Shown here piece by piece: positions 6,025 to 64,000 of a DNA stretch of 64,000 nucleotides. Each line of letters opens with the position of its first letter. Position 1 is the stretch's first letter. Made by a program: the position numbers and the translations under genes. The notes below the pieces were generated by a model. The model made no database searches. It had not been told where the DNA came from and was given only the letters and a program-made list of their open reading frames with translations. Where the stretch lies: positions 8,556,001 to 8,620,000 of the forward strand of contig NZ_CP045096.1 of the NCBI RefSeq assembly GCF_009184865.1, in the 5' to 3' direction. This DNA comes from Streptomyces phaeolivaceus (GTDB lineage: Bacteria > Actinomycetota > Actinomycetes > Streptomycetales > Streptomycetaceae).

Positions 6025-7191
6025 GTGACGGCGCAGCACCACACCCCGCCCGCGAGTTTCACCGGCGACGCGAACCCCTACGGCGGCGGCGACCCGTACG
6101 CGGACTACCGCACCACCGACTTCCCCTTCACCCGCTACGCCGACCTCGCCGACCGCAGGCTCGGGGCCGGGGTCGTCGCCGCCAACGACGAGTTCTTCGC
6201 CCACCGGGAGAACCTGCTGGTGCCCGAGCCGGCCGAGTTCGTCCCCGAGCACTTCGGGCACAAGGGCAAGGTCATGGACGGCTGGGAGACCCGCCGCCGC
6301 CGGGGCGCCTCGGCCGACCACCCCTGGCCGACGGCCGAGGACCACGACTGGGCGCTGATCCGGCTCGGCGCGCCCGGTGTGATCCGGGGGATCGTCGTCG
6401 ACACGGCCCACTTCCGCGGCAACTATCCGCAGGCGGTGTCCGTCGAGGCCGCGTCGGTGGCCGGTGCCCCGTCGCCGGAGGAACTCCTCGCCGACGACGT
6501 GAAGTGGACGACCCTCGTCCCGCGCACCCCCGTCGGCGGCCACGCGGCCAACGGCTTCGCGGTCACCGTCGAGCAGCGCTTCACCCACCTCCGCCTCAAC
6601 CAGCACCCCGACGGCGGCGTGGCCCGCCTGCGCGTCTACGGCGAGGCCGTGCCGGACCCGGTCTGGCTGGACGCGCTCGGTACCTTCGACGTGGTCGCCC
6701 TGGAGAACGGCGGCCTGGCCGAGGACGCCTCCAACCTCTTCTACTCGCCCGCCACCAACACCATCCAGCCCGGCCGCGCCCGGGTGATGCACGAGTGCTG
6801 GGAGACCCGCCGCCGCCGCGACCAGGGCAACGACTGGATCCGCTACCGCCTCGTCGCCCAGTCCGAGATCCGCGCCCTGGAGATCGACACGGCCTACCTC
6901 AAGGGCAACGCGGCAGGCTGGGCCACGGTCTCGATCAAGAACGACGAGAACGACGAAGCCGGCGAGAACGGCGAGCACGGCGACGGCGGCGACTGGACCG
7001 AGATCCTCCCCCGCACCCGCCTCCAGCCCGACACCAACCACCGCTTCGTCCTCGACACCCCGGTCACGGCCACCCACGCCCGCGTGGACATCTACCCCGA
7101 CGGCGGCATCTCCCGCCTACGCCTCCACGGCTCCCTGACGGAAACGGGCCGGACCGCCCTGTCCACCCGCCACCAGGGGCTGGGTGGCTAG
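6025..7191 (+). CDS. alc: Allantoicase
   Basis: 388-residue enzyme hydrolysing allantoate to ureidoglycolate and urea. It contains the two tandem allantoicase repeats, each with the motif MDGWETRRRR / HECWETRRRR (about residues 85 and 255) and a matching beta-sandwich end (RLRVYGE; RLRLHGS). GTG 6025 is the likely start, though AAGG is 15 nt upstream, farther than usual; GTG 5989 is an alternative. An acidic, repetitive insert (NDENDEAGENGEHGDGGD) at about residues 308-325 is unusual and lies in a loop of the second repeat. Co-transcribed with allB. Confidence 0.95.
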   Translation: MTAQHHTPPASFTGDANPYGGGDPYADYRTTDFPFTRYADLADRRLGAGVVAANDEFFAHRENLLVPEPAEFVPEHFGHKGKVMDGWETRRRRGASADHPWPTAEDHDWALIRLGAPGVIRGIVVDTAHFRGNYPQAVSVEAASVAGAPSPEELLADDVKWTTLVPRTPVGGHAANGFAVTVEQRFTHLRLNQHPDGGVARLRVYGEAVPDPVWLDALGTFDVVALENGGLAEDASNLFYSPATNTIQPGRARVMHECWETRRRRDQGNDWIRYRLVAQSEIRALEIDTAYLKGNAAGWATVSIKNDENDEAGENGEHGDGGDWTEILPRTRLQPDTNHRFVLDTPVTATHARVDIYPDGGISRLRLHGSLTETGRTALSTRHQGLGG

Positions 7192-7208
7192 TACGCGTCC
7201 GCGGGCCC

Positions 7209-7305
7209 GGTGGGGGCGGGCCGCGCAGTTCCCCGCGCCCCTGAAAGGGCCGCAGGCCCTGCTTCGCTTTTCAGGGGCGCGGGGAACTGCGCGAGAAGCC
7301 CCACC
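7209..7305. repeat. Dispersed palindromic repeat, copy 2
   Basis: Left arm GCAGTTCCCCGCGCCCCTGAAAG and right arm CTTTTCAGGGGCGCGGGGAACTGC pair almost completely. It lies just after the alc stop codon, before the next plus-strand gene, so it could terminate the allB-alc transcript. The rest of the 7192-7447 gap holds no gene. Confidence 0.85.
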
Positions 7306-7447
7306 GGACCCGCACCCGACACCCGACCTCGCTCCCCCCGGCCCCCAGGATCCCCGCCCACCGATGAGTTGCGGCCACCCCGGGGGTCTGCCCTGATGAC
7401 AACAGACCCCCGAGCTCCCACCGGAGCATCGAAAGCAGGCACTCGTC

Positions 7448-8074
7448 ATGGGCAAGCTCACCCTCACCTCCTTCGTCACCCTCGACGGCGTCCACCAGGC
7501 CCCCGGCGGCCCGAACGAGGATCGTCGCGACGGCTTCGCGCACGGCGGCTGGAGCGTCCCGTACGGCGACGAGGACTTCGGCCGGTTCATCGACGGAGTC
7601 TTCGGCCGGGTCGGCGCGTTCCTGCTGGGCCGCAGGACGTACGAGATCTTCGCCGCCCACTGGCCGAAGGTCACCGACCCGGGCGACCCGGTCGCGGCGA
7701 AGCTCAACTCCCTGCCCAAGTACGTCGTCTCGCACACCGTCACCGCCCCGGAGTGGAACGCCACGACCGTGCTCTCCGGCGACCTCGCCAAGGAGGTCAC
7801 CGCCCTCAAGGAGGCGACCGACGGCGAGGTGCAGATCCACGGCAGCGGGCACCTCGCGCAGTCGCTGCTCGCCCTCGACCTGGTCGACACCGTGCACCTG
7901 CTGACGTTCCCGGTCGTCCTCGGCGCCGGCCGCCGCCTCTTCGTCGAGGGCGCCCTCCCGACCGCGTTCCGGCACGCCGGCGGCAGCATCAGCGGCACCG
8001 GTGTCTCGATCCAGACGTACGAACGCGCGGGCCGCCCCGAGTACGGCACCTATGAACTGCCGGAGAACGCGTGA
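7448..8074 (+). CDS. RibD C-terminal/dihydrofolate-reductase-like protein
   Basis: 208-residue protein of the DHFR/RibD-C superfamily: N-terminal strand KLTLTSFVTLDGVHQAPGG, central LLGRRTYEIFAAHWP, and C-terminal IHGSGHLAQSLLALDLVDTVHLLTFPVVLGAGRRLF, which are the usual NADPH-site landmarks. These standalone proteins are common in actinomycetes and are not true folate enzymes; substrate unknown. ATG 7448 opens the family motif directly. Ends with GRPEYGTYELPENA, as in close homologues. Confidence 0.88.
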   Translation: MGKLTLTSFVTLDGVHQAPGGPNEDRRDGFAHGGWSVPYGDEDFGRFIDGVFGRVGAFLLGRRTYEIFAAHWPKVTDPGDPVAAKLNSLPKYVVSHTVTAPEWNATTVLSGDLAKEVTALKEATDGEVQIHGSGHLAQSLLALDLVDTVHLLTFPVVLGAGRRLFVEGALPTAFRHAGGSISGTGVSIQTYERAGRPEYGTYELPENA

Positions 8075-8133
8075 ACTCCGGTTAACTCCCGGAAAACTTA
8101 GCGGACGTGCCCGGAAAATCATGGAACTTGTCA

Positions 8134-8163
8134 TTGACATGCCACTGTCTACGCGCGTCATCA
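8134..8163 (+). promoter_or_regulatory. Promoter-like motif upstream of secreted RNase
   Basis: TTGACA (8134-8139) is followed by TGCCACTGTCTACGCGCG and then TCATCAT just before the start codon. The core contains the 8-bp palindrome ACGCGCGT. A similar block precedes many streptomycete genes for secreted hydrolases in my recollection; the exact -10 is not certain. Confidence 0.4.
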
Positions 8164-8170
8164 TGAAGCC

Positions 8171-8557
8171 ATGAGATTCCCCCCACGGGCAACACGTATC
8201 GGAGCGGCGGCAGCCCTCCTGTCCGCTCTCCTCGTCGGCGGCACCGTCACCGCCACCCCGGCCGCCGCCGCGGTCGGCAGCATCTGCTACAGCGATCTGC
8301 CGTCGCAGGCGTACACCACACTCAACCTGATCGCCCAGGGCGGCCCGTACCCGTACTCGCAGGACGGCGGCGTCTTCCAGAACCGGGAGCGCATCCTGCC
8401 CAGCCGCTCCACGGGGTACTACCACGAGTACACCGTGAAGACCCCCGGCTCCTCCACCCGCGGCGCCCGCCGCATCGTCACCGGTCAGGCCCATGAGGAG
8501 GACTACTACACGGCCGACCACTACGCGTCCTTCGACCTGGTCGACCACGACTGCTGA
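8171..8557 (+). CDS. Secreted guanyl-specific ribonuclease (RNase Sa type)
   Basis: 128 residues: a cleavable signal peptide (RR near the start, hydrophobic core AAALLSALLVGGTVT, AxA site near residue 33) and a mature domain nearly matching RNase Sa/Sa3. Catalytic features are present: Glu in YYHEYTV, Arg residues in STRGARRI, His in DHYASF, and the two cysteines (ICYSD and the C-terminal Cys) forming the family disulfide. It cleaves RNA after G outside the cell. No barstar-like inhibitor gene is adjacent, as expected for an exported enzyme. Confidence 0.96.
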   Translation: MRFPPRATRIGAAAALLSALLVGGTVTATPAAAAVGSICYSDLPSQAYTTLNLIAQGGPYPYSQDGGVFQNRERILPSRSTGYYHEYTVKTPGSSTRGARRIVTGQAHEEDYYTADHYASFDLVDHDC

Positions 8558-8686
8558 ACCCGCCCCACCGGGTTCGGCGCCGCCCGTCCCGGCCGTCCGT
8601 CCTCCCCCCACCGGACAGACGGCCGGGCGGGCCTCCACTCCCCCCGACTCCCACTCCCCCCGACTTCCGCTCGCCCTGCCTTCCGC

Positions 8687-55312: not shown

Positions 55313-57097
55313 GTGTTCACCACCCGCCCGACGCTCCAGGGGACCTTCGGCATGGTGTCCTCCACGCACTGGCTCGCCTCGCAGTCGGCGATGGCGGTGC
55401 TGGAGGACGGCGGCAACGCGTTCGACGCGGCCGTGGCGGCGGGCTTCGTCCTGCATGTCGTGGAACCGCATCTCAACGGGCCCGCCGGTGAGGTGCCGAT
55501 CATCCTCGCCCCGGCGGGCGGCGAGGTCCGGGTGCTGTGCGGGCAGGGCGTCGCGCCCGCCGGGGCGTCGGCCGCGCACTACCGGGGGCTCGGACTGGAA
55601 CTCGTCCCCGGCACCGGACCCCTGGCCGCCGCCGTGCCGGGCGCCTTCGACGCGTGGCTGCTCCTCCTGCGCGACCACGGCACCAAGGACCTGGCCGACG
55701 TCCTGAAGTACGCCGTCGGCTACGCGGAGGACGGACACGCGCCCGTGGAGAACGTGGGGGCGACCGTCGAGTCCGTACGGGAGCTCTTCGAGGGGGAGTG
55801 GCCGTCCTCGGCGCGGGTGTACCTCCCGGACGGACGGGCGCCCCGACCGGGCGAGCTGTTCCGCAACCCGGCGCTGGCCGCCACCTGGCGGCGGCTGCTC
55901 GCCGAGACCGAGGGGGCGGGCGACCGGGAGGCCCGGATCGAGGCGGCGCGCGAGGTGTGGCGCTCCGGCTTCATCGCCGAGGCCCTCGTCCGGCAGTCCG
56001 GCCGCCCCACCCTCGACACCAGCGGCGAACGACACACCGGGACACTCACCATGGCCGACCTCGCCGCCTGGTCCGCGTCCTACGAGGCCCCGGCGACGTA
56101 CGACTGGAACGGCTGGACCCTGTGCAAGGCCGGCCCCTGGAGCCAGGGCCCCGTCCTCCTCCAGCAACTCGCCCTGCTGCCGCCCGAACTGCCCGCGTAC
56201 GGGTCCGCCGACTATGTGCACCTCCTCGTCGAGGGCTGCAAGCTCGCCATGGCCGACCGGGAGGCCTGGTACGGGGACGCGGCGCCGGTACCGCTGGACG
56301 AACTGCTGTCCGAGGAGTACAACGCGGCACGGCGGGGCCTGGTCGGCGACAAGGCGTCGTACGAGCTGCTGCCGGGCGGTCCGGGGGGCCGCACCCCGCG
56401 GCTGAGCGCCCACGCGCGCGTGGTGGCCACCGACGAGCCGGGCGCCGGCCCGATGGGGGCCGGGGAGCCCACGGTCGCGACCGACGGGAGCACCCGGGGC
56501 GACACCTGCCACCTCGACATCGTCGACCGCTGGGGCAACATGGTCGCGGCCACGCCCAGCGGCGGCTGGCTGCAGTCCAACCCGGTCGTGCCCGAGCTGG
56601 GTTTTCCGCTCGGCACCCGGCTGCAGATGGCCTGGCTGGACGAGGGACTGCCCAACTCCCTCACCCCCGGGCGCCGCCCGCGCACCACGCTCACCCCGTC
56701 GCTGGCACTGCGCGACGGCGTGCCGGTGATGGCGTTCGGCACCCCCGGCGGCGACCAGCAGGACCAGTGGCAGCTGCACTTCTTCCTCGCCGTCGCCCTC
56801 CGCCCGCCGGTCCGCGGCGGCCTCGACCTCCAGGGCGCCATCGACGCCCCGAACTGGCACAACGACAGCTTCCCCGGCTCCTTCTACCCGCGCGGCATGC
56901 GGCCCGGCAGCGTCACCGTCGAGTCCCGGACGCCCCCGGAGACCGTCGCGGAACTGCGGCGGCGGGGCCATGACGTCGTCGTCGGCGAGAGCTGGAGCGA
57001 GGGCAGACTGTGCGCGGTCGCCCGCGACCCGGAGACCGGGGTGCTCTCGGCGGCGGCGAACCCGCGCGGGATGCAGGGGTACGCGGTCGGGCGTTGA
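55313..57097 (+). CDS. Cytosolic gamma-glutamyltransferase-family protein (HpxW-like candidate)
   Basis: 594 residues, no signal peptide. Ntn-hydrolase landmarks: LEDGGNAFDAAVAAGFVLHVVEPHLNGPAGE and the catalytic Thr in RGDTCHLDIVDRWGNMVAATPSGG, followed by small-subunit TPSLALRDGVPVMAFGTPGGDQQ. It differs from the secreted enzyme at 37614 in lacking a signal and in the oxyanion region. GGT relatives such as oxamate amidohydrolase (HpxW) act in ureide breakdown, an attractive idea here, but evidence is family-level only. GTG 55313 follows GAGGAG. Confidence 0.88.
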   Translation: MFTTRPTLQGTFGMVSSTHWLASQSAMAVLEDGGNAFDAAVAAGFVLHVVEPHLNGPAGEVPIILAPAGGEVRVLCGQGVAPAGASAAHYRGLGLELVPGTGPLAAAVPGAFDAWLLLLRDHGTKDLADVLKYAVGYAEDGHAPVENVGATVESVRELFEGEWPSSARVYLPDGRAPRPGELFRNPALAATWRRLLAETEGAGDREARIEAAREVWRSGFIAEALVRQSGRPTLDTSGERHTGTLTMADLAAWSASYEAPATYDWNGWTLCKAGPWSQGPVLLQQLALLPPELPAYGSADYVHLLVEGCKLAMADREAWYGDAAPVPLDELLSEEYNAARRGLVGDKASYELLPGGPGGRTPRLSAHARVVATDEPGAGPMGAGEPTVATDGSTRGDTCHLDIVDRWGNMVAATPSGGWLQSNPVVPELGFPLGTRLQMAWLDEGLPNSLTPGRRPRTTLTPSLALRDGVPVMAFGTPGGDQQDQWQLHFFLAVALRPPVRGGLDLQGAIDAPNWHNDSFPGSFYPRGMRPGSVTVESRTPPETVAELRRRGHDVVVGESWSEGRLCAVARDPETGVLSAAANPRGMQGYAVGR

Positions 57098-57190
57098 CGG
57101 GGATCGGCCGACCCCGGGTATTCACGGCGATTCCCTCCCGAATACACCGGACGGGTGGGGATTGTCAGTGCCGCGTGCTGTCATGGAGAC

Positions 57191-58069
57191 ATGATCGAAG
57201 ACAACGAAACCATCGACGAGTTTCTCGCTCGGCACGCCTCGGACGTCGAGGAAGCGATCCGCAAGGCCGCCGCCGCGGAGATCATGCCGCGCTTCCGGCA
57301 GCTCGCCGCGCACGAGATCGACGAGAAGAGCGGCCCGCACGACCTGGTGACCGACGCCGACCGCAAGGCCGAGCTGTATCTGACGGAGGCGCTCGCCGCG
57401 CTGCTGCCCGGCTCGGTCGTGGTCGGCGAGGAGGCGGTGCACGCCGATCCGGCGTCGTACGAGGCGATCCAGGGCGAAGCGCCGGTCTGGATCGTCGACC
57501 CGGTGGACGGCACCCGGCAGTTCGTGCGCGGCGAGCCCGGCTTCTGCACGCTCGTCGCCCTCGCCCAGGGCGGGGTCCTGCGCGCCTCCTGGACGTACGC
57601 ACCCGCCCTCGACCGGCTCGCCGCGGCGATACGCGGCCAGGGGGCCACGCTCGACGGCGAGCCCCTGCGCGCCGGATCACCCGACCCCGGCCGTGACCTC
57701 GTCATCGCCACCTCCCATCCGGACTACACCACGGAGGAGCAGAAGCGGGCGCTGCTCGGCCTCTGGACGGACGGGGTGGCCCCGCGTGCCTGCGGCTCGG
57801 CCGGGCTGGAGTATCTCGCCGTCGCCGAGGGCCGGTTGGACGCGACCGCCTTCAGCTGGGAGGCGGCCTGGGACCACGCCGCCGGACTGCTGCTGGTCGA
57901 GGAGGCGGGCGGCGCCCACCTCACCCTGGCCGGCGAGCCCTTCCGGATAACCGGCGGCAACACCCTGCCGTTCACCACCGCCCGGGACGCGGCGACGGCC
58001 CGCCGGGTGGTGGGCCTGCTGTCCGGCGGAGCCTCAAGTGGAACTGGTGCGTCCGTGGGCGGGGTCTGA
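57191..58069 (+). CDS. Inositol-monophosphatase-family phosphatase
   Basis: 292 residues with the metal-binding motifs of the IMPase/FBPase/CysQ superfamily: DLVTDADRKAE, VVGEEAVH, WIVDPVDGTRQFVRG and WEAAWDHAAGLLLVEEAGG. Mg-dependent phosphatase; substrate could be inositol phosphate, histidinol phosphate or PAP. ATG 57191 (MIEDNETIDEF) with a GGAG ribosome-binding site; an upstream GTG is less likely. Confidence 0.9.
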   Translation: MIEDNETIDEFLARHASDVEEAIRKAAAAEIMPRFRQLAAHEIDEKSGPHDLVTDADRKAELYLTEALAALLPGSVVVGEEAVHADPASYEAIQGEAPVWIVDPVDGTRQFVRGEPGFCTLVALAQGGVLRASWTYAPALDRLAAAIRGQGATLDGEPLRAGSPDPGRDLVIATSHPDYTTEEQKRALLGLWTDGVAPRACGSAGLEYLAVAEGRLDATAFSWEAAWDHAAGLLLVEEAGGAHLTLAGEPFRITGGNTLPFTTARDAATARRVVGLLSGGASSGTGASVGGV

Positions 58070-58209
58070 AGCGGAACCGGCGCGTCCGTGGGTGGGGCCC
58101 ACCCTTCCCCAGGCCTGTCGGTGGCCGGGCATATCCTGAGCGCAGGTCTGTCGGCGGGCGGGGATTCCGCCGGCGACGCTTGGCCATCGGCTGACGAAGG
58201 GGTCCGGAC

Positions 58210-59631
58210 GTGCCGTCGATGCTCGACGCGGTGGTGGTGGGGGCGGGGCCGAACGGCCTGACAGCTGCCGTGGAGCTGGCCCGCCGCGGCTTCTCCGTGG
58301 CCGTGTTCGAGGCGAAGGACACCGTGGGAGGGGGCGCCCGCACCGCGGAGCTGACCCTGCCCGGCTTCCACCACGACCCCTGCTCGGCCGCGCACCCGCT
58401 GGGCGTCAACTCGCCCGCGTTCAGGGCGATGCCGCTCCACCGGTACGGCCTGGAGTGGCTGCACGCCGAGCTGCCGATGGCGCACCCCTTCCTGGACGGC
58501 TCGGCGGCCGTGCTGGCGCGCTCGGTGGCGGAGACGGCCGCCTCCTTCGGACCGCGTGACGCGGGCGCGTACCGCAGGCTGGTCCAGCCGTTCCTGCCCA
58601 AGTGGGAGACGCTCGTCCGGGACTTCATGTCCCTGCCGCTGTCCGCACTGCCCCGCGACCCGGTCACCCTCGCCCGGTTCGGCCTGGTGGGGCTGCCGCC
58701 GTCCACATGGCTGATGCGCCGCTTCAAGGACGAGCGGGCCCAGGCGCTGTTCGCCGGGCTCGTCGCCCATGTCATCGCCCCGCTCGGCGGCCTCGCCACC
58801 GGCGCCGTCGGCCTGGTCTTCGCGCTGGCCGCGCACGCCGCCGGCTGGCCGGTCGCCCGGGGCGGCTCCCAGGCCATCTCCGACGCGCTCACCGCGTATC
58901 TGAAGGACCTCGGCGGCACCGTCCACACCGACTACGAGGTCAAGCGCCTCGACGACCTGCCGCCCGCCCGCGCGTACGTCTTCGACACCTCGCCCACCGC
59001 GCTGGCCAGGATCGCGGGCTTCGGCAACCACTACGCCTCGTACCGCTACGGCGCGAGCGTCTTCAAGCTGGACTACGCGCTGGACGGCCCCGTGCCCTGG
59101 ACCGCCGAGGAGGCGCGCCGCGCCGGGACCGTCCAGGCCGGCGCGAGCAGGGCCGAGATCGGCGCGGCGCTCGACGCGGCCTCCCGGCAGGGCCGGGCGC
59201 CCGACGCGCCCTTCCTGATCACCGTGCAGCCCAGCCTGGTCGACCCCGGCCGGGCCCCCGAGGGCAAGCATGTCTTCTGGGCGTACGGCCATGTCCCGAA
59301 CGGCTGGACGGGCGACCTGACGGACGCCGTCGAGCGTCAACTGGAGCGATTCGCCCCGGGGTTCCGCGACCGGGTGCTCGCCCGCGCCACCGCCGGCCCG
59401 CCCGAGCTGGCCGCGCACAACGCCAACTACGTGGGCGGCGACATCGCCTGCGGCGCCGCCTCCGGACTCCAACTGCTGCTCCGCCCCAAGCTCTCCCTCT
59501 TCCCGTACGGCACCCCGCACCCGGCCGTCTTCATCTGCTCCTCGGCGACCCCGCCGGGCCCCGGGGTGCACGGCATGTCCGGGCACAACGCGGCCAAGGC
59601 GGTGTGGCGCAGGCTGCGCCAGGAAGCCTGA
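58210..59631 (+). CDS. Phytoene-desaturase-like FAD/NAD(P) oxidoreductase
   Basis: 473 residues. N-terminal dinucleotide fold [57 protein letters not shown] and C-terminal [15 protein letters not shown] are those of the crtI/amine-oxidase-like group commonly annotated as NAD(P)/FAD-dependent oxidoreductase. No carotenoid genes nearby. GTG 58210 with GAAGGGG upstream. The ebo cluster starts 100 bp downstream; co-function is not evident. Confidence 0.88.
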
Positions 59632-59738: not shown

Positions 59739-60710
59739 ATGGAAGATCGGACAGCGGTACCGGGTTCCGGCTCGCGACCTGCCGTGGGCCTCGCCGACCT
59801 GGCACAACTCGTGCGGGCACCGGCCGCCTTGAGCGTCCCCGGCGATGTGCTCGCGGGTGCCGCCGCGGCCGGACACCCACTGGGCGCGCGGACGTTCGGC
59901 GTGATGGGTTCGTCCGTCTGCCTCTACTGGGCCGGCATGGCCCTCAACGACTACGCCGACGCCACGATCGACGCGGTCGAGCGCCCCGGGCGCCCCGTCC
60001 CGTCGGGCCGAGTGCCACGCCGAACCGCCCTCGCCGTCGCGGCTGCCCTGACCGCCGGGGGCCTCGCGCTCGCCGCCGTCTCCGGGGGCCGCCGCAGCCT
60101 TGTGGGAGCGCTTCCGCTGGCCGGTGCCGTCTGGGCGTACGACCTCAAGCTCAAGTCCACCCCGGCCGGTCCGGCCGCCATGGCCGCCGCCCGCGCCCTG
60201 GACGTCCTCGCCGGCGCGCTCGCCGCCGGGCCCGGGACGGGCGGCACGACCGGGACCGGGGCCGCCCTGCGGCGCGGCGCCGTCCCCGCCGCGCTGGTCG
60301 GCGCCCACACCTACACCCTGACCGCGCTCAGCCGCCACGAGATCTCCGGCGCCCCCGCCCGGCTGCCGGCCGCGACCCTCGCCGCCTCCACGACCACCGT
60401 CCTCGCCGCCGCGCTCCCGGCCGTCCGCACGGCCGCGACCGCCGGTGTCTCGCGTGCCACCGCCGCCCGCGCCGTCGTCGTCACCGCCGGGGCCCTCGTC
60501 TACCTCGGCAGCTACGGGACGGCCCAGGCCCGTGCCGTACGGGAGCCGTCCGGCGAGAACGTACGGCGGGCCGTCGGGGCCGGGATCCTCGGGCTGATGC
60601 CCCTGCAGGCGGCGCTGACCGCACGCGGCGGAGCCACGGCCGCCGCGGCGGCCCTCGGTGTCGTCCACCCTCTCGCGCGACGGCTGGCCCGGCGCATATC
60701 CCCCACCTGA
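59739..60710 (+). CDS. eboC: EboC, UbiA-like prenyltransferase-family membrane protein
   Basis: 323 residues, eight to nine membrane helices. The first aspartate motif of UbiA proteins, NDYADATID (N70-D71-D74-D78), is present; AYDLKLKSTP follows. The second motif D-x-x-x-D is not evident, as expected for the EboC subgroup, whose substrate is unknown. Order with EboA, EboB and EboE identifies an ebo cluster. ATG 59739 lies just after a leaderless-type promoter. Confidence 0.88.
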   Translation: MEDRTAVPGSGSRPAVGLADLAQLVRAPAALSVPGDVLAGAAAAGHPLGARTFGVMGSSVCLYWAGMALNDYADATIDAVERPGRPVPSGRVPRRTALAVAAALTAGGLALAAVSGGRRSLVGALPLAGAVWAYDLKLKSTPAGPAAMAAARALDVLAGALAAGPGTGGTTGTGAALRRGAVPAALVGAHTYTLTALSRHEISGAPARLPAATLAASTTTVLAAALPAVRTAATAGVSRATAARAVVVTAGALVYLGSYGTAQARAVREPSGENVRRAVGAGILGLMPLQAALTARGGATAAAAALGVVHPLARRLARRISPT

Positions 60711-61665
60711 ACAGCACGGACCTCCGCGGGAGGAGAGCCGGAATGACCCCACACCTTCCCCATCTCCCACATCCCTCACGTCTGCCACATCTCCCACATC
60801 CCTGGCATCTCCTACGCCCCTGACATCTCCTGCATCCCTCAGGTTCGGCTACGGCACCAACGGCTTCACCAACCACCGGCTCGGCGACGTCCTCGCGGTC
60901 CTCGCCGACCTCGGCTACGACGGTGTCGCGCTCACCCTCGACCACGGCCACCTCGACCCGACCGCCGACGATCTGCCCCGGCGGGTGACCGCCGTCGCCC
61001 GGGACCTGGCCCGGCACGGGCTCGACGTGACGGTGGAGACCGGCGCGCCCTACCTCCTCGACCCCTGGGGCAAGCACCACCCGACCCTCATGACGGAAGG
61101 CGCCGAGCGCCGGATCGACCTGCTGCGGCGGGCCGTACGCATCGCCGCCGACCTGGGTTCGCCCACCGTCCACCTGTGCAGCGGCCCCGCGCCCGACGAA
61201 GGGCTGCCCGAACGCGACGCGTGGAAGCGGCTCGCGGCGGGCGTCGAGACCGTCCTGGAGACGGCGGGGAAGTACGGCGTCTCGCTGGCCTTCGAACCCG
61301 AGCCGTACATGTTCGTCGACACCGTGGAACGGTGCCTGGAACTCGCCGAGATGGTCGGCGGACACGAACTGTTCGGGATCACCCTCGACATCGGGCACGC
61401 GCACTGCGTGGAGGAGCGGACCGTGCTGGAATGCGTCCGCCTCGCCGCCCCGCGCCTGCTGAACGTGCAGATCGAGGACATGCGGAGGGGCGTCCACCAG
61501 CACCTCGAACTCGGCACCGGCGAGATCGACTTCCCGCCCGTACTCGCCGCCCTCCGGGACCTCGACCACCGCGGACTGGTCTCCGTGGAGATCCAGGGCG
61601 GCTCCCTCGACGCCCCCGAAGTGGCCCGTCGCTCACTGGACTTCCTCCGCGCGGCGACGGCCTGA
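60658..61665 (+). CDS. TIM-barrel sugar-phosphate isomerase/epimerase-like protein in ebo cluster
   Basis: The continuous frame 60658-61665 encodes 335 aa; conserved sequence begins at LRFGYGTNGF (about 60838) and runs as a xylose-isomerase-like TIM barrel: VALTLDHGHL, VETGAPYLLDPWGKHHPT, VHLCSGPAP, AFEPEPYMF, GITLDIGHAH, VNVQIEDMRRGVHQHLELGTGEIDF, SVEIQGGS. GTG 60658 has no ribosome-binding site and overlaps EboC. A well-placed ATG with GGGAGGAGAG (60743) is in a different frame and stops at 60821-60823 within repeats. Either the start is atypical or the frame is shifted in the repeat. Confidence 0.8.
   Translation: MSSTLSRDGWPGAYPPPEQHGPPREESRNDPTPSPSPTSLTSATSPTSLASPTPLTSPASLRFGYGTNGFTNHRLGDVLAVLADLGYDGVALTLDHGHLDPTADDLPRRVTAVARDLARHGLDVTVETGAPYLLDPWGKHHPTLMTEGAERRIDLLRRAVRIAADLGSPTVHLCSGPAPDEGLPERDAWKRLAAGVETVLETAGKYGVSLAFEPEPYMFVDTVERCLELAEMVGGHELFGITLDIGHAHCVEERTVLECVRLAAPRLLNVQIEDMRRGVHQHLELGTGEIDFPPVLAALRDLDHRGLVSVEIQGGSLDAPEVARRSLDFLRAATA
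60761..60839 (+). repeat. CATCTCCCACATCCCT-type repeats at isomerase N-terminus
   Basis: CATCTCCCACATCCCT occurs at 60761 and 60788, and CATCTCC(T/C)(A/G)C... variants at 60806 and 60824: spacings 27, 18 and 18 bp, all multiples of 9. The array lies between the good ribosome-binding site and the conserved part of the isomerase. Confidence 0.85.
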
Positions 61666-61728
61666 CCCCACCACGGCCCAGCACCTCCCCACCCCACCCC
61701 CCTCCACCCCACATGAGGTTGTTCCGTC

Positions 61729-62580
61729 ATGGTCCCGATCGCGACACCGCTCCCCGATGCGGCCGAACCCACCGACTCCTCTGACTCCGCCGACTCCGCC
61801 GACTCCTCCGAAGCCGTCGACCCCCGAGGTCTGCTCGCCCGCCATCCGCTCGACCCGGCGGGCCGCGCCTGGCTCGACGAGGCCGTGGCCCGGATCGCCG
61901 AACGGCCCGCCGCCGTACGCGCCCTGTTCCCCGCCGCCCGAAGGCGCTGCGGCCGGGCGCGGCTGGACGGGCGGTGGACCGTGGACGAGGCGGCCCGCGC
62001 CGTCCTGCTCGGCGCGCTGCCGCTGGACGGGCAGCCGCTCGCCGACGAACTGGCGGGCCTCTTCCGCCACGGCGACCCGGCCGAACAGCGGGCCGTCCTG
62101 CGGGCGCTGCCGCTGCTCGCCGACGCGGAGGGGGGCGACACCTCCGAAGAACCCCTCGGCGACCTCGCCCTGCCCCTCGTCCGCGAGGCCCTGCGCGGCA
62201 ACGACGGCAGCATCGTCGAGGCCGCCCTCGGACCGTACGGCGCCGCCAGGCTGCCGGACGCCGAGTACCGGCAGGCCGTGCTCAAGTGCGTCTTCCAGGA
62301 GATCCCGCTGGACCGGATCGCCGGGCTCGCCGCCCGCGCCGACGCCGAACTCGCCCGTATGCTCGCCGACTTCGCGCACGAGCGGGTCGCCGCCGGACGG
62401 GACGTACCGGCGGACATCTGGCCCGTCGTCCGCGCCTTCCCCGCCGCCGAACACCTCATCGGCGGACTCGGTGCCGAGACGGCCGCCGCCTCCCCCGACC
62501 GCCGTGAGGCCGCCGAGCGCGCCCTGACGGCCCTCCGGAGCGCGACCACCACCCCGGCCCCCTCTGCCTCCTCCGCCTAG
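61729..62580 (+). CDS. eboA: EboA-domain protein
   Basis: 283 residues: short acidic, Ser/Asp-rich N-terminus (DSSDSADSADSSEAVD), then the EboA helical repeat domain (LLARHPLDPAGRAWLDEAVARIAERPAAVRALFPAARRRCG ... LFRHGDPAEQRAVLRALPLLADAE ... DYALVREALRGNDGSIVEAALGPYGAARLPDAEYRQAVLKCVFQEIPLDRIAGL). No membrane or signal segment. In ebo clusters it always accompanies EboC/EboB/EboE; biochemical role unknown. ATG 61729. Confidence 0.88.
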   Translation: MVPIATPLPDAAEPTDSSDSADSADSSEAVDPRGLLARHPLDPAGRAWLDEAVARIAERPAAVRALFPAARRRCGRARLDGRWTVDEAARAVLLGALPLDGQPLADELAGLFRHGDPAEQRAVLRALPLLADAEGGDTSEEPLGDLALPLVREALRGNDGSIVEAALGPYGAARLPDAEYRQAVLKCVFQEIPLDRIAGLAARADAELARMLADFAHERVAAGRDVPADIWPVVRAFPAAEHLIGGLGAETAAASPDRREAAERALTALRSATTTPAPSASSA

Positions 62581-62702
62581 CGTCCCCTTCCGCCCAGCCA
62601 CCACCTCCCACAGCCACCCCCTCCCCACAGCCCCCACGGCCGCCGCCTCGCCCCTGCGGTCGGCGGCGTTCACCGGACCACCCGAGGAAAAAAGGCCCAC
62701 TC

Positions 62703-63467
62703 GTGCGCATCTTCGATCCCCACATCCATATGACCTCCCGCACCACCGACGACTACGAGGCGATGCACGCGGCCGGGGTGCGCGCCGTCGTCGAGCCGGC
62801 GTTCTGGCTGGGCCAGCCCCGCTCCTCGCCCGAGAGCTTCTACGACTACTTCGACGCGCTGCTGGGCTGGGAGCCCTACCGGGCCGCCCAGTTCGGCATC
62901 CAGCACTTCTGCACGATCGCGCTCAACCCCAAGGAGGCCAACGACCCGCGCTGCCGGCCGGTGCTGGACGAGCTGCCGCGCTACCTCGCCAAGGACCGGG
63001 TGGTCGCCGTCGGCGAGATCGGCTACGACTCCATGACACCGGAGGAGGACGAGGCGCTCGCGCTCCAGCTCCAGTTGGCGATCGAGCACGAACTGCCCGC
63101 CCTGGTGCACACCCCGCACCGCGACAAGGCCACCGGCACCCGCCGCACCCTGGACGTCGTACGGGAGTCGGGCATCGCCCCCGAACTGGTCGTCCTCGAC
63201 CACCTCAACGAACTGACCGTCGGCATGGTCCTCGACAGCGGCTGCTGGGCCGGGTTCTCCATCTACCCGAGGACCAAGATGAGCGAGGATCGCATGGTCA
63301 CCATCCTCCGCTCGCACGGCACGGAACGCGTCCTCGTCAACTCGGCTGCCGACTGGGGCCGTTCGGACCCGCTCAAGACCCGGAGGACCGCCGACGCGAT
63401 GCTCGCCGCCGGGTTCGACGACGACGCCGTGGACCGGGTGCTGTGGCGCAACCCCGTCGCCTTCTAA
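62703..63467 (+). CDS. eboB: EboB, TatD-like amidohydrolase (shortened by a stop)
   Basis: 254 residues from GTG 62703 (after GAGGAAAAAAGG). Metal ligands of the TatD fold: FDPHIHMTS, Glu in AVGEIGYDS, His in ALVHTPHRDKAT, His in VLDHLNE and Asp near SAADWGRSD. The frame ends TTC-TAA, but the same frame continues for 29 codons reading GQSGRLDLDEPKPDEESSFQ... to TGA 63555-63557, the usual conserved end of this family after NPVAFYGQSG. So a TAC-to-TAA change appears to have removed the C-terminal tail. Confidence 0.9.
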   Translation: MRIFDPHIHMTSRTTDDYEAMHAAGVRAVVEPAFWLGQPRSSPESFYDYFDALLGWEPYRAAQFGIQHFCTIALNPKEANDPRCRPVLDELPRYLAKDRVVAVGEIGYDSMTPEEDEALALQLQLAIEHELPALVHTPHRDKATGTRRTLDVVRESGIAPELVVLDHLNELTVGMVLDSGCWAGFSIYPRTKMSEDRMVTILRSHGTERVLVNSAADWGRSDPLKTRRTADAMLAAGFDDDAVDRVLWRNPVAF

Positions 63468-63570
63468 GGGCAGAGCGGACGGCTGGACCTCGACGAGCCC
63501 AAACCGGACGAGGAGTCGAGCTTCCAGGGCAACTCCATCCGGCGCGGCGGGGAATGAGGGAGGGCGGGCC

Positions 63571-64000
63571 ATGCGCTTCCGGCACCCGGACGGCACCGCC
63601 GTCCACCTCGGCTACTGCAGCAACGTCCACCAGGCCGAGGACCTCGACGGCGTCCTCGCCCAACTCGCCACCCACGCCGAACCGGTCCGCGAGCGCCTAG
63701 GCGTCGACCGGCTGGGCATCGGCCTCTGGCTAGCCCGCGATGTCGTCCGTCAACTGGTGGCGGAACCGGGCGAGTTGCGGCGCCTGCGCGACGAACTCGC
63801 CGCGCGCGGCCTGGAGACCGTCACCCTCAACGCCTTCCCGTACGCCGGGTTCCACCGTGAGGTGGTCAAGAAGGACGTCTACCTCCCCGACTGGGCCGAC
63901 GAGGCCCGGCTGAGCCACACCCTCGACTGCGCCCGGGTCCTCACCGCGCTCCTCCCGGACGACGCCGAACGCGGCAGCGTCTCCACCCTGCCGCTGGCCT
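63571..64000 (+). CDS. eboE: EboE, metabolite-traffic protein (TIM barrel, 3' end outside window)
   Basis: First 143 residues of a xylose-isomerase-like protein: HLGYCSNVHQAEDLDGVLAQLATHAEPVRERLGVDRLGIGLWLARDVVRQLV and LETVTLNAFPYAGFHREVVKKDVYLPDWADEARLSHTLDCARVLTALLP match EboE. ATG 63571 follows GGGAGGGCGG. The cluster probably continues with EboD (dehydroquinate-synthase-like) and EboF beyond the edge. Confidence 0.88.
   Translation, partial: MRFRHPDGTAVHLGYCSNVHQAEDLDGVLAQLATHAEPVRERLGVDRLGIGLWLARDVVRQLVAEPGELRRLRDELAARGLETVTLNAFPYAGFHREVVKKDVYLPDWADEARLSHTLDCARVLTALLPDDAERGSVSTLPLA

Follow-up and report, generated by a model that had tools for sequence, protein, structure and literature searches.

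A gene cluster resembling the ebo operon lies at the end of the 64,000 nt stretch of Streptomyces phaeolivaceus DNA analyzed here (the window), and it raises the question of what such a cluster makes in Streptomyces and with which cyclase. Extracts from PMC5133447 and PMC6282210 describe the ebo product as still unknown.

An ebo-type cluster running off the window

The region from 59739 to 64000 encodes, all on the + strand and in this order, an EboC-like UbiA-family prenyltransferase (59739..60710; 323 aa), an extra xylose-isomerase-like TIM barrel (60814..61665, start uncertain; PF01261, 141 bits), EboA (61729..62580; 283 aa, predicted to be all-helical and repeat-like), the TatD-like EboB (62703..63467; 254 aa) and EboE (63571..64000). 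These are the five genes named in an earlier note on this DNA, and Pfam and NCBIfam models recovered all of them in the order given there. Most of the cluster is inside the window and the remainder lies beyond it, as had also been anticipated: EboE is cut by the window end, with 143 of its 406 aa inside, and EboF follows at 64788-66194 in extended window coordinates (locus L009; PF01663, 204 bits). A gene for a macro-domain protein comes after EboF.

The complete EboE protein scored 418 bits with NF035939 (curated NCBIfam cut-off, 250 bits), and EboA scored 168 bits with the EboA_domain model NF035938 (cut-off, 50 bits). With the stricter EboA_family model NF035937, EboA reached 84 bits against a cut-off of 320 bits, and EboB (PF01026, 51 bits) and EboF were recognized by general Pfam models only, both above cut-off. 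EboA by its domain model only, EboB and EboF by Pfam models plus synteny, and EboE are therefore clustered in one direction as in a canonical ebo operon. The assignment to the ebo type is upheld.

The first enzyme belongs to the UbiA family (PF01040, 57 bits), but it scored 107 bits with the curated EboC model NF035940 (cut-off, 250 bits) and 362 bits with NF045897, "SCO3242 family prenyltransferase" (cut-off, 260 bits), which places it in a sister family of EboC. A search of its own genome returned one match, so that the window EboC is the single family member there. Among proteins of solved structure, the closest to it in sequence is digeranylgeranylglyceryl phosphate synthase, which forms the prenyl ether of archaeal lipids.

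The TIM barrel is an addition beyond the six canonical Ebo proteins. Its conserved part spans approximately 60838 to 61665, the listed ORF starts at a GTG at 60658 within eboC, and the ATG equipped with a Shine-Dalgarno-like site (60743) lies in another reading frame. EboB carries a premature nonsense codon and is ~30 residues shorter than its relatives. EboB and the TIM barrel of the window thus look damaged, while EboA, EboE and EboF are full length. In another locus (L070), the TIM barrel and EboA are fused into one. The AlphaFold2 model of EboA had a pLDDT of 86; Foldseek returned no match to it in the PDB at E ≤ 0.001 (best, 0.035), and the weak matches were to helical repeats only.

An apparent cyclase swap in actinobacterial ebo clusters

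EboD, which the earlier note expected downstream and whose absence it named as a reason to give up the ebo assignment, is neither adjacent to the window cluster nor found elsewhere in the genome. The two DHQ-synthase-family genes of this genome reached 174 and 135 bits with an EboD model, compared with 507-651 bits for the EboDs of fetched clusters, 60 of which had been used to train the model. As both genes fall far under true EboDs, a divergent EboD was rejected. The cluster does not contain MIPS2, the synthase discussed below, either. We also inspected by eye the filtered ORF lists just upstream of EboC in four loci, namely the window-type clusters devoid of adjoining inositol-monophosphatase-like and CrtO-like genes, and saw no hidden cyclase. 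Those two genes adjoin the window-type cluster in 12 of 16 genomes but not in the remaining four, and were rejected as integral parts.

The missing EboD is likely explained by a non-homologous cyclase, MIPS2, that is used instead in the actinobacterial lineage and in this genome resides in a second ebo cluster. Among 30 actinobacterial clusters, the usual order is MIPS-EboC-TIM-EboA-EboB-EboE-EboF; 26 carry MIPS, one carries EboD and three carry neither. The 80 loci without an actinobacterial title contain no MIPS, and EboD is present in 70 of the 71 with at least four core genes and in two of the remaining nine. Among 396 genomes, MIPS2 was detected at 574.9 bits or more in 25 (next best match, 338.7 bits); all 25 are EboE-positive, out of 27 EboE-positive genomes in total. 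MIPS-linked and window-type clusters form a single clade with a support of 1.0, within which the window cluster falls in a cyclase-less clade with 14 complete members and two kinds of surroundings. We therefore place it by the tree in an actinobacterial MIPS-type variant, defined here; the extra TIM barrel lies between EboC and EboA and is accompanied by EboB, EboE and EboF in the same clade, although MIPS2 is outside the window cluster itself. These comparisons show the architecture of the variant and its cyclase swap at the sequence level: EboD appears to have given way, seemingly in a single event, to the unrelated MIPS2 of archaeal type, and a further TIM barrel to have been gained. We found no description of this swap in a literature search, in which gene-name queries were flooded by Ebola and unrelated papers.

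MIPS2 aligned over nearly its full length with the myo-inositol-1-phosphate synthase of Archaeoglobus fulgidus (1u1i; E = 3e-95). Seven residues, which we take to be catalytic, are retained in 15 of 15 aligned sequences (N255, D261, K274, K278, K306, D332 and K367 in A. fulgidus numbering). Fold family and residues together identify MIPS2 as a putative archaeal-type inositol-phosphate synthase. In our estimate, MIPS2 is unlikely to yield a ring different from inositol phosphate, such as one built from another sugar phosphate or one with five members. Such a ring would accord with the distant relation to the other MIPS gene of the genome (49 bits) and with the presence in the wider MIPS family of a five-membered-cyclitol-phosphate synthase (6k96), which we count against the inositol reading; however, all seven checked positions are retained, and the profile is far closer to archaeal Ino1 (323 bits) than to 6k96 (75 bits). 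Relatives of EboD produce C7 rings and MIPS enzymes C6 rings, and EboD-type and MIPS-type clusters therefore need not share a product.

Two clusters and a candidate product

The second ebo cluster is located ~118 kb downstream. It carries the sole MIPS2 of the genome, with full-length EboB and TIM barrel, and lacks EboC, whereas the window cluster carries the sole EboC; the two add up to one set. In genomes that have both a window-type cluster and MIPS2, the EboC beside MIPS2 is lost or broken in 6 of 14, whereas of 122 MIPS2 genomes that lack a window-type cluster 4 gave no EboC match, and we count this difference in favor of cooperation between the clusters. A second cluster without EboC was ruled out in G123, in which the ORF list and the profile detected EboC. 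Three genomes count against cooperation: the one-contig genome G457 and the draft G406 have a window-type cluster and no MIPS2, and in G491 MIPS2 is in two pieces.

We favor, at a probability of roughly 55%, the explanation that the window holds one half of an actinobacterial ebo variant, which is served in trans by MIPS2 to give a prenyl-cyclitol. MIPS2 would cyclize glucose 6-phosphate to an inositol phosphate, whose ring may then be modified by EboB and by both TIM barrels, EboE and the additional one, and EboC would prenylate one of the ring hydroxyls. EboF might remove or exchange a phosphate and EboA could act as a helical scaffold. A prenyl-cyclitol bound to the membrane would result. 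In this strain, the EboC-less second cluster would supply the cyclase in trans. The earlier suggestion of a prenylated or sugar-derived metabolite fits this scheme and can be narrowed, on the basis of MIPS2, to a prenylated inositol-type cyclitol as the most likely product. We consider it an even bet that ebo clusters in general make prenylated cyclitol lipids, that the actinobacterial swap leads to inositol-headed lipids, and that two half-broken clusters cooperate in trans here.

The damage to EboB, the out-of-frame TIM start and the missing cyclase would suit a decaying spare copy with no function of its own. We find this quite improbable, as the window has the only EboC of the genome, EboA, EboE and EboF are full length, and the clade is old enough to comprise its 14 complete tree members in two kinds of surroundings. 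An aromatic EboC acceptor, for example a quinoline, with the cyclase ring aromatized later or serving another branch, is likewise very doubtful. According to PMC9235831, marine-bacterial EboC homologues (Ubi-297 enzymes) favor quinoline derivatives for farnesylation in vitro, which counts against the prenyl-cyclitol explanation, but as described there the acceptor was picked from a test panel and not found in cells. The window enzyme belongs by curated models to the SCO3242 sister family rather than to EboC. Moreover, MIPS products are polyols, and no aromatizing enzyme is among the conserved genes.

It is also somewhat unlikely that Ebo is mainly a metabolite-export system, in which the products of the cyclase and the prenyltransferase would form a lipid carrier and not the end product. 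As reported in PMC6282210, every tested ebo mutant of Nostoc punctiforme retains scytonemin monomer in the cytoplasm, and the authors proposed a cyclitol-lipid carrier; that carrier could itself be a prenyl-cyclitol, so export is compatible with the product favored here. The non-homologous swap at the cyclase position counts as independent evidence for the cyclitol as central: if the prenyl-cyclitol reading is true, two unrelated cyclases at the same position each point, independently of the other, to the ring as the core of the product. The swap points to glucose 6-phosphate as the likely substrate and inositol as the head group, and it moves the question of the ebo product into genetically tractable Streptomyces.

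Comparison with known systems

The canonical ebo operon is given as eboABCDEF by Yurchenko et al., 2016 (PMC5133447). Like it, the window cluster encodes EboA, EboB, EboE, EboF and an enzyme of the UbiA family, all in the same orientation, but it differs by the lack of EboD, in place of which MIPS2 is found in the second cluster, by the extra TIM barrel and by a UbiA enzyme of the SCO3242 family. The EDB locus of Pseudomonas fluorescens NZI7 is of the EboD type according to PMC6282210, unlike the window cluster. MIPS2 resembles the A. fulgidus synthase in its probable catalytic residues and overall alignment, and differs in being located in ebo clusters. In extracts from PMC3610822, SCO3242 and SCO3243 of Streptomyces coelicolor are listed with the CDA cluster, and the neighbor of SCO3242 is annotated as myo-inositol phosphate synthase. 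Judged by family name, SCO3242 and the window enzyme share the same NCBIfam prenyltransferase family; in contrast to the S. coelicolor pair, the window cluster lacks a cyclase gene. The cyclase swap also suggests that SCO3242 and SCO3243 may belong to a conserved pathway separate from the CDA antibiotic cluster.

The ebo cluster at the window edge and its apparent damage

In the window, genes for a UbiA-family prenyltransferase, a xylose-isomerase-like TIM barrel (TIM), EboA, TatD-like EboB and the start of EboE all lie on the + strand at 59739-64000, in agreement with the earlier note. When the sequence of this 10.2 Mb, 99.95% complete genome is read past the window end, EboE is whole (406 aa; 418 bits with NF035939) and is followed by EboF (468 aa; PF01663) and then by a macro-domain protein. 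The earlier note had proposed looking for both EboF and EboD downstream; the latter was not found in this genome, whose two DHQ-synthase-family genes scored 174 and 135 bits with an EboD model, far below the 507-651 bits of the EboDs from the fetched clusters, most of which are also among the 60 EboD proteins of this analysis that make up the model. One of the two genes is AroB-like (L011); the other (L012, contig C2, 3820006-3823341) is neither AroB-like nor EboD and possibly derives from another cyclitol or aminoshikimate-type pathway. By the curated models, the prenyltransferase belongs to the SCO3242 family (NF045897; 362 bits, curated cut-off 260) and not to the curated EboC family (NF035940; 107 bits, cut-off 250). 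We refer to it as EboC below.

Three genes at 55313-59631 border the window-type cluster in 12 of the 16 genomes that have it and are regarded as neighbours rather than integral parts: a putative gamma-glutamyltransferase assigned by eye (55313-57097), an inositol-monophosphatase-family gene (57155-58069) and a CrtO-like FAD oxidoreductase (58210-59631). Similar genes of ~400 aa, cytochrome P450-like by eye, follow EboF in L191 (G457) and L192 (G506).

The window EboB ends at 63467 by a nonsense codon (region 63455-63570), ~30 residues short of where relatives end; the one in locus L188 continues for 30 residues. In the TIM gene, the ATG at 60743, which has a Shine-Dalgarno-like site, does not share the reading frame of the conserved part and is separated from it by ~74 bases more than in L188, with 9-bp-type tandem repeats (60743-60840); the listed ORF starts within eboC. 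An in-frame ATG or GTG lies at most 27 bases from the conserved TIM start in nine other window-type loci (13 were tried, of which the search motif missed four) and is missing from the window. The repeat stretch is possibly a lesion, a slippage site or a sequencing error, and sequencing error may underlie both the EboB stop and the TIM frame.

Cyclases of actinobacterial ebo clusters

Of 396 genomes sampled from the phylum, 27 carry EboE (26 above the cut-off), and the surroundings fetched for all 27 contained 30 actinobacterial clusters, most commonly in the order MIPS - EboC - TIM - EboA - EboB - EboE - EboF. MIPS is present in 26 of the 30 (L051 being counted with a remnant only, its full copy lying on another contig) and EboD in one (L053). 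Neither cyclase is found in three, namely the cluster of the window, the G123 cluster that resembles it and a G244 cluster with EboC and EboE in pieces. The extra TIM barrel occurs in 27 clusters and is absent from L053, L056 and L072. As a contrast set, named genome contigs were scanned with the EboF alignment, and we took the best 80 of at least 577 confirmed loci. The ranking was by similarity to L053, an EboD-type locus, so that they are not a random sample; none of these 80 has an actinobacterial title. EboD is present in 70 of the 71 of these best 80 that have at least four core genes and in two of the remaining nine, and MIPS in none of either group; the TIM model gave one weak match (50 bits, L117) among the 80.

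The archaeal-type inositol-phosphate synthase of these clusters (MIPS2) goes together with ebo. With a score of at least 574.9 bits, 26 copies were detected in 25 of the 396 genomes, spread over six families (f1, f3, f6, f8, f18 and f33); all 25 are among the 27 EboE-positive genomes (Fisher's exact p = 1e-37, relatedness ignored), and the next match scored 338.7 bits. The other MIPS gene of the window's genome reaches 49 bits with the MIPS2 model. Archaeal Ino1 (1u1i) aligns with almost the full length of the MIPS2 profile (E 3e-95), and N255, D261, K274, K278, K306, D332 and K367 (A. fulgidus numbering), which we take to be catalytic, are retained in 15/15 aligned MIPS2 sequences; chains 3qvw, 3qvx and 3qw2 are unlike 1u1i at K278, K367 and N255.

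In an EboB+EboE+EboF tree of 111 clusters (L072 was left out by the coverage filter), the MIPS-linked and window-type clusters form one clade with support 1.0, which includes L051; these sequences indicate that they have one origin. The 14 complete window-type clusters are themselves a clade (support 1.0). L053 (G301), the sole EboD-bearing cluster of the phylum, groups with clusters from Thermomicrobiales (L083), Chthonomonas (L107) and Acidobacteria (L111, L139) with support 0.998, which suggests that it was acquired by transfer. Its companions from other phyla are without EboA.

A second cluster and its counterparts in the genus

A second cluster (L010) starts ~118 kb past the window's EboF in the order MIPS2 - TIM - EboA - EboB - EboE - EboF, with overlapping MIPS2 and TIM genes and no EboC. 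The genome's sole SCO3242/EboC gene lies in the window and its sole MIPS2 gene in the second cluster. Since EboC and MIPS2 are split in this way, and EboB and TIM look damaged in the window but are both full length in the second cluster, the two seem to complement each other, each covering what the other lacks.

Of 200 genomes from the genus, 16 carry a window-like EboC (at least 66% identity), and MIPS adjoins it in none of the 16. All six genes are present in 14 of these loci; G519 ends at a contig end, and G453 has only EboC and TIM. MIPS2 lies elsewhere in 14 of the 16 genomes, in two pieces in G491; the draft genome G406 and the one-contig genome G457 yielded none. In six of the 14 (the window's own genome G000, G441, G476, G506, G519 and G491), the MIPS2 locus has lost its EboC or has a broken one, EboF also being lost or broken there in G476 and G506; EboC is intact in seven (G123, G520, G556, G488, G401, G583 and, on a separate contig, G481), and G453 falls into neither class. 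G520 has a further MIPS2 copy with a cut EboC. Among 122 MIPS2-positive genomes without a window-type cluster in the same draw, EboC is matched at E <= 1e-30 in 112 and at E <= 1e-8 in a further six, where some of the matches are to short pieces; the four without a match are three drafts with at least 690 contigs and G559, in which MIPS2 is cut short. The comparison of 6/14 with EboC gone or broken against 4/122 with no EboC match gives Fisher's p = 6e-5, with relatedness uncontrolled and by unlike criteria, as any genomic EboC piece counted as present in the 122 and the locus was inspected in the 14.

Protein relatives and earlier proposals

In sequence, EboC is closest among solved structures to digeranylgeranylglyceryl phosphate synthase (6m31; E 1.6e-8, about the first third matched), an enzyme that joins a prenyl chain to a polyol phosphate through an ether bond; inositol phosphate is a polyol phosphate of that kind. 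By this likeness, EboC would put a prenyl ether on inositol phosphate. Counting against this acceptor, marine-bacterial EboC homologues preferred quinolines in vitro, according to the accessible part of that study (PMC9235831). The TIM profile is closest to MJ1311, the ribulose-phosphate epimerase UlaE and other sugar isomerases, and EboF to phosphonoacetate hydrolase and nucleotide pyrophosphatases. EboA is predicted to be all-helical (pLDDT 86, 42 sequences), and its model has no close match in the PDB. TIM and EboA are fused in one reading frame in L070 (G143, 7028-8632), and such fusions in Actinobacteria were noted in the available text of Yurchenko et al., 2016 (PMC5133447). Our guess is that EboA might be a scaffold.

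We found no description of the replacement of EboD by MIPS in the accessible portions of the literature searched, which mostly excluded subscription journals and covered ebo with inositol, UbiA with inositol-phosphate synthase in Streptomyces, SCO3241-3243, EboD, ebo names since 2017 and the EDB locus. As far as their accessible text goes, SCO3242 and SCO3243 are listed with the CDA cluster (PMC3610822), and Klicki et al., 2018 (PMC6282210) proposed a role in export. The terms 'inositol' and 'MIPS' are absent from the available main text of Yurchenko et al., 2016, who proposed that EboD and EboC together yield an isoprenoid-cyclitol.
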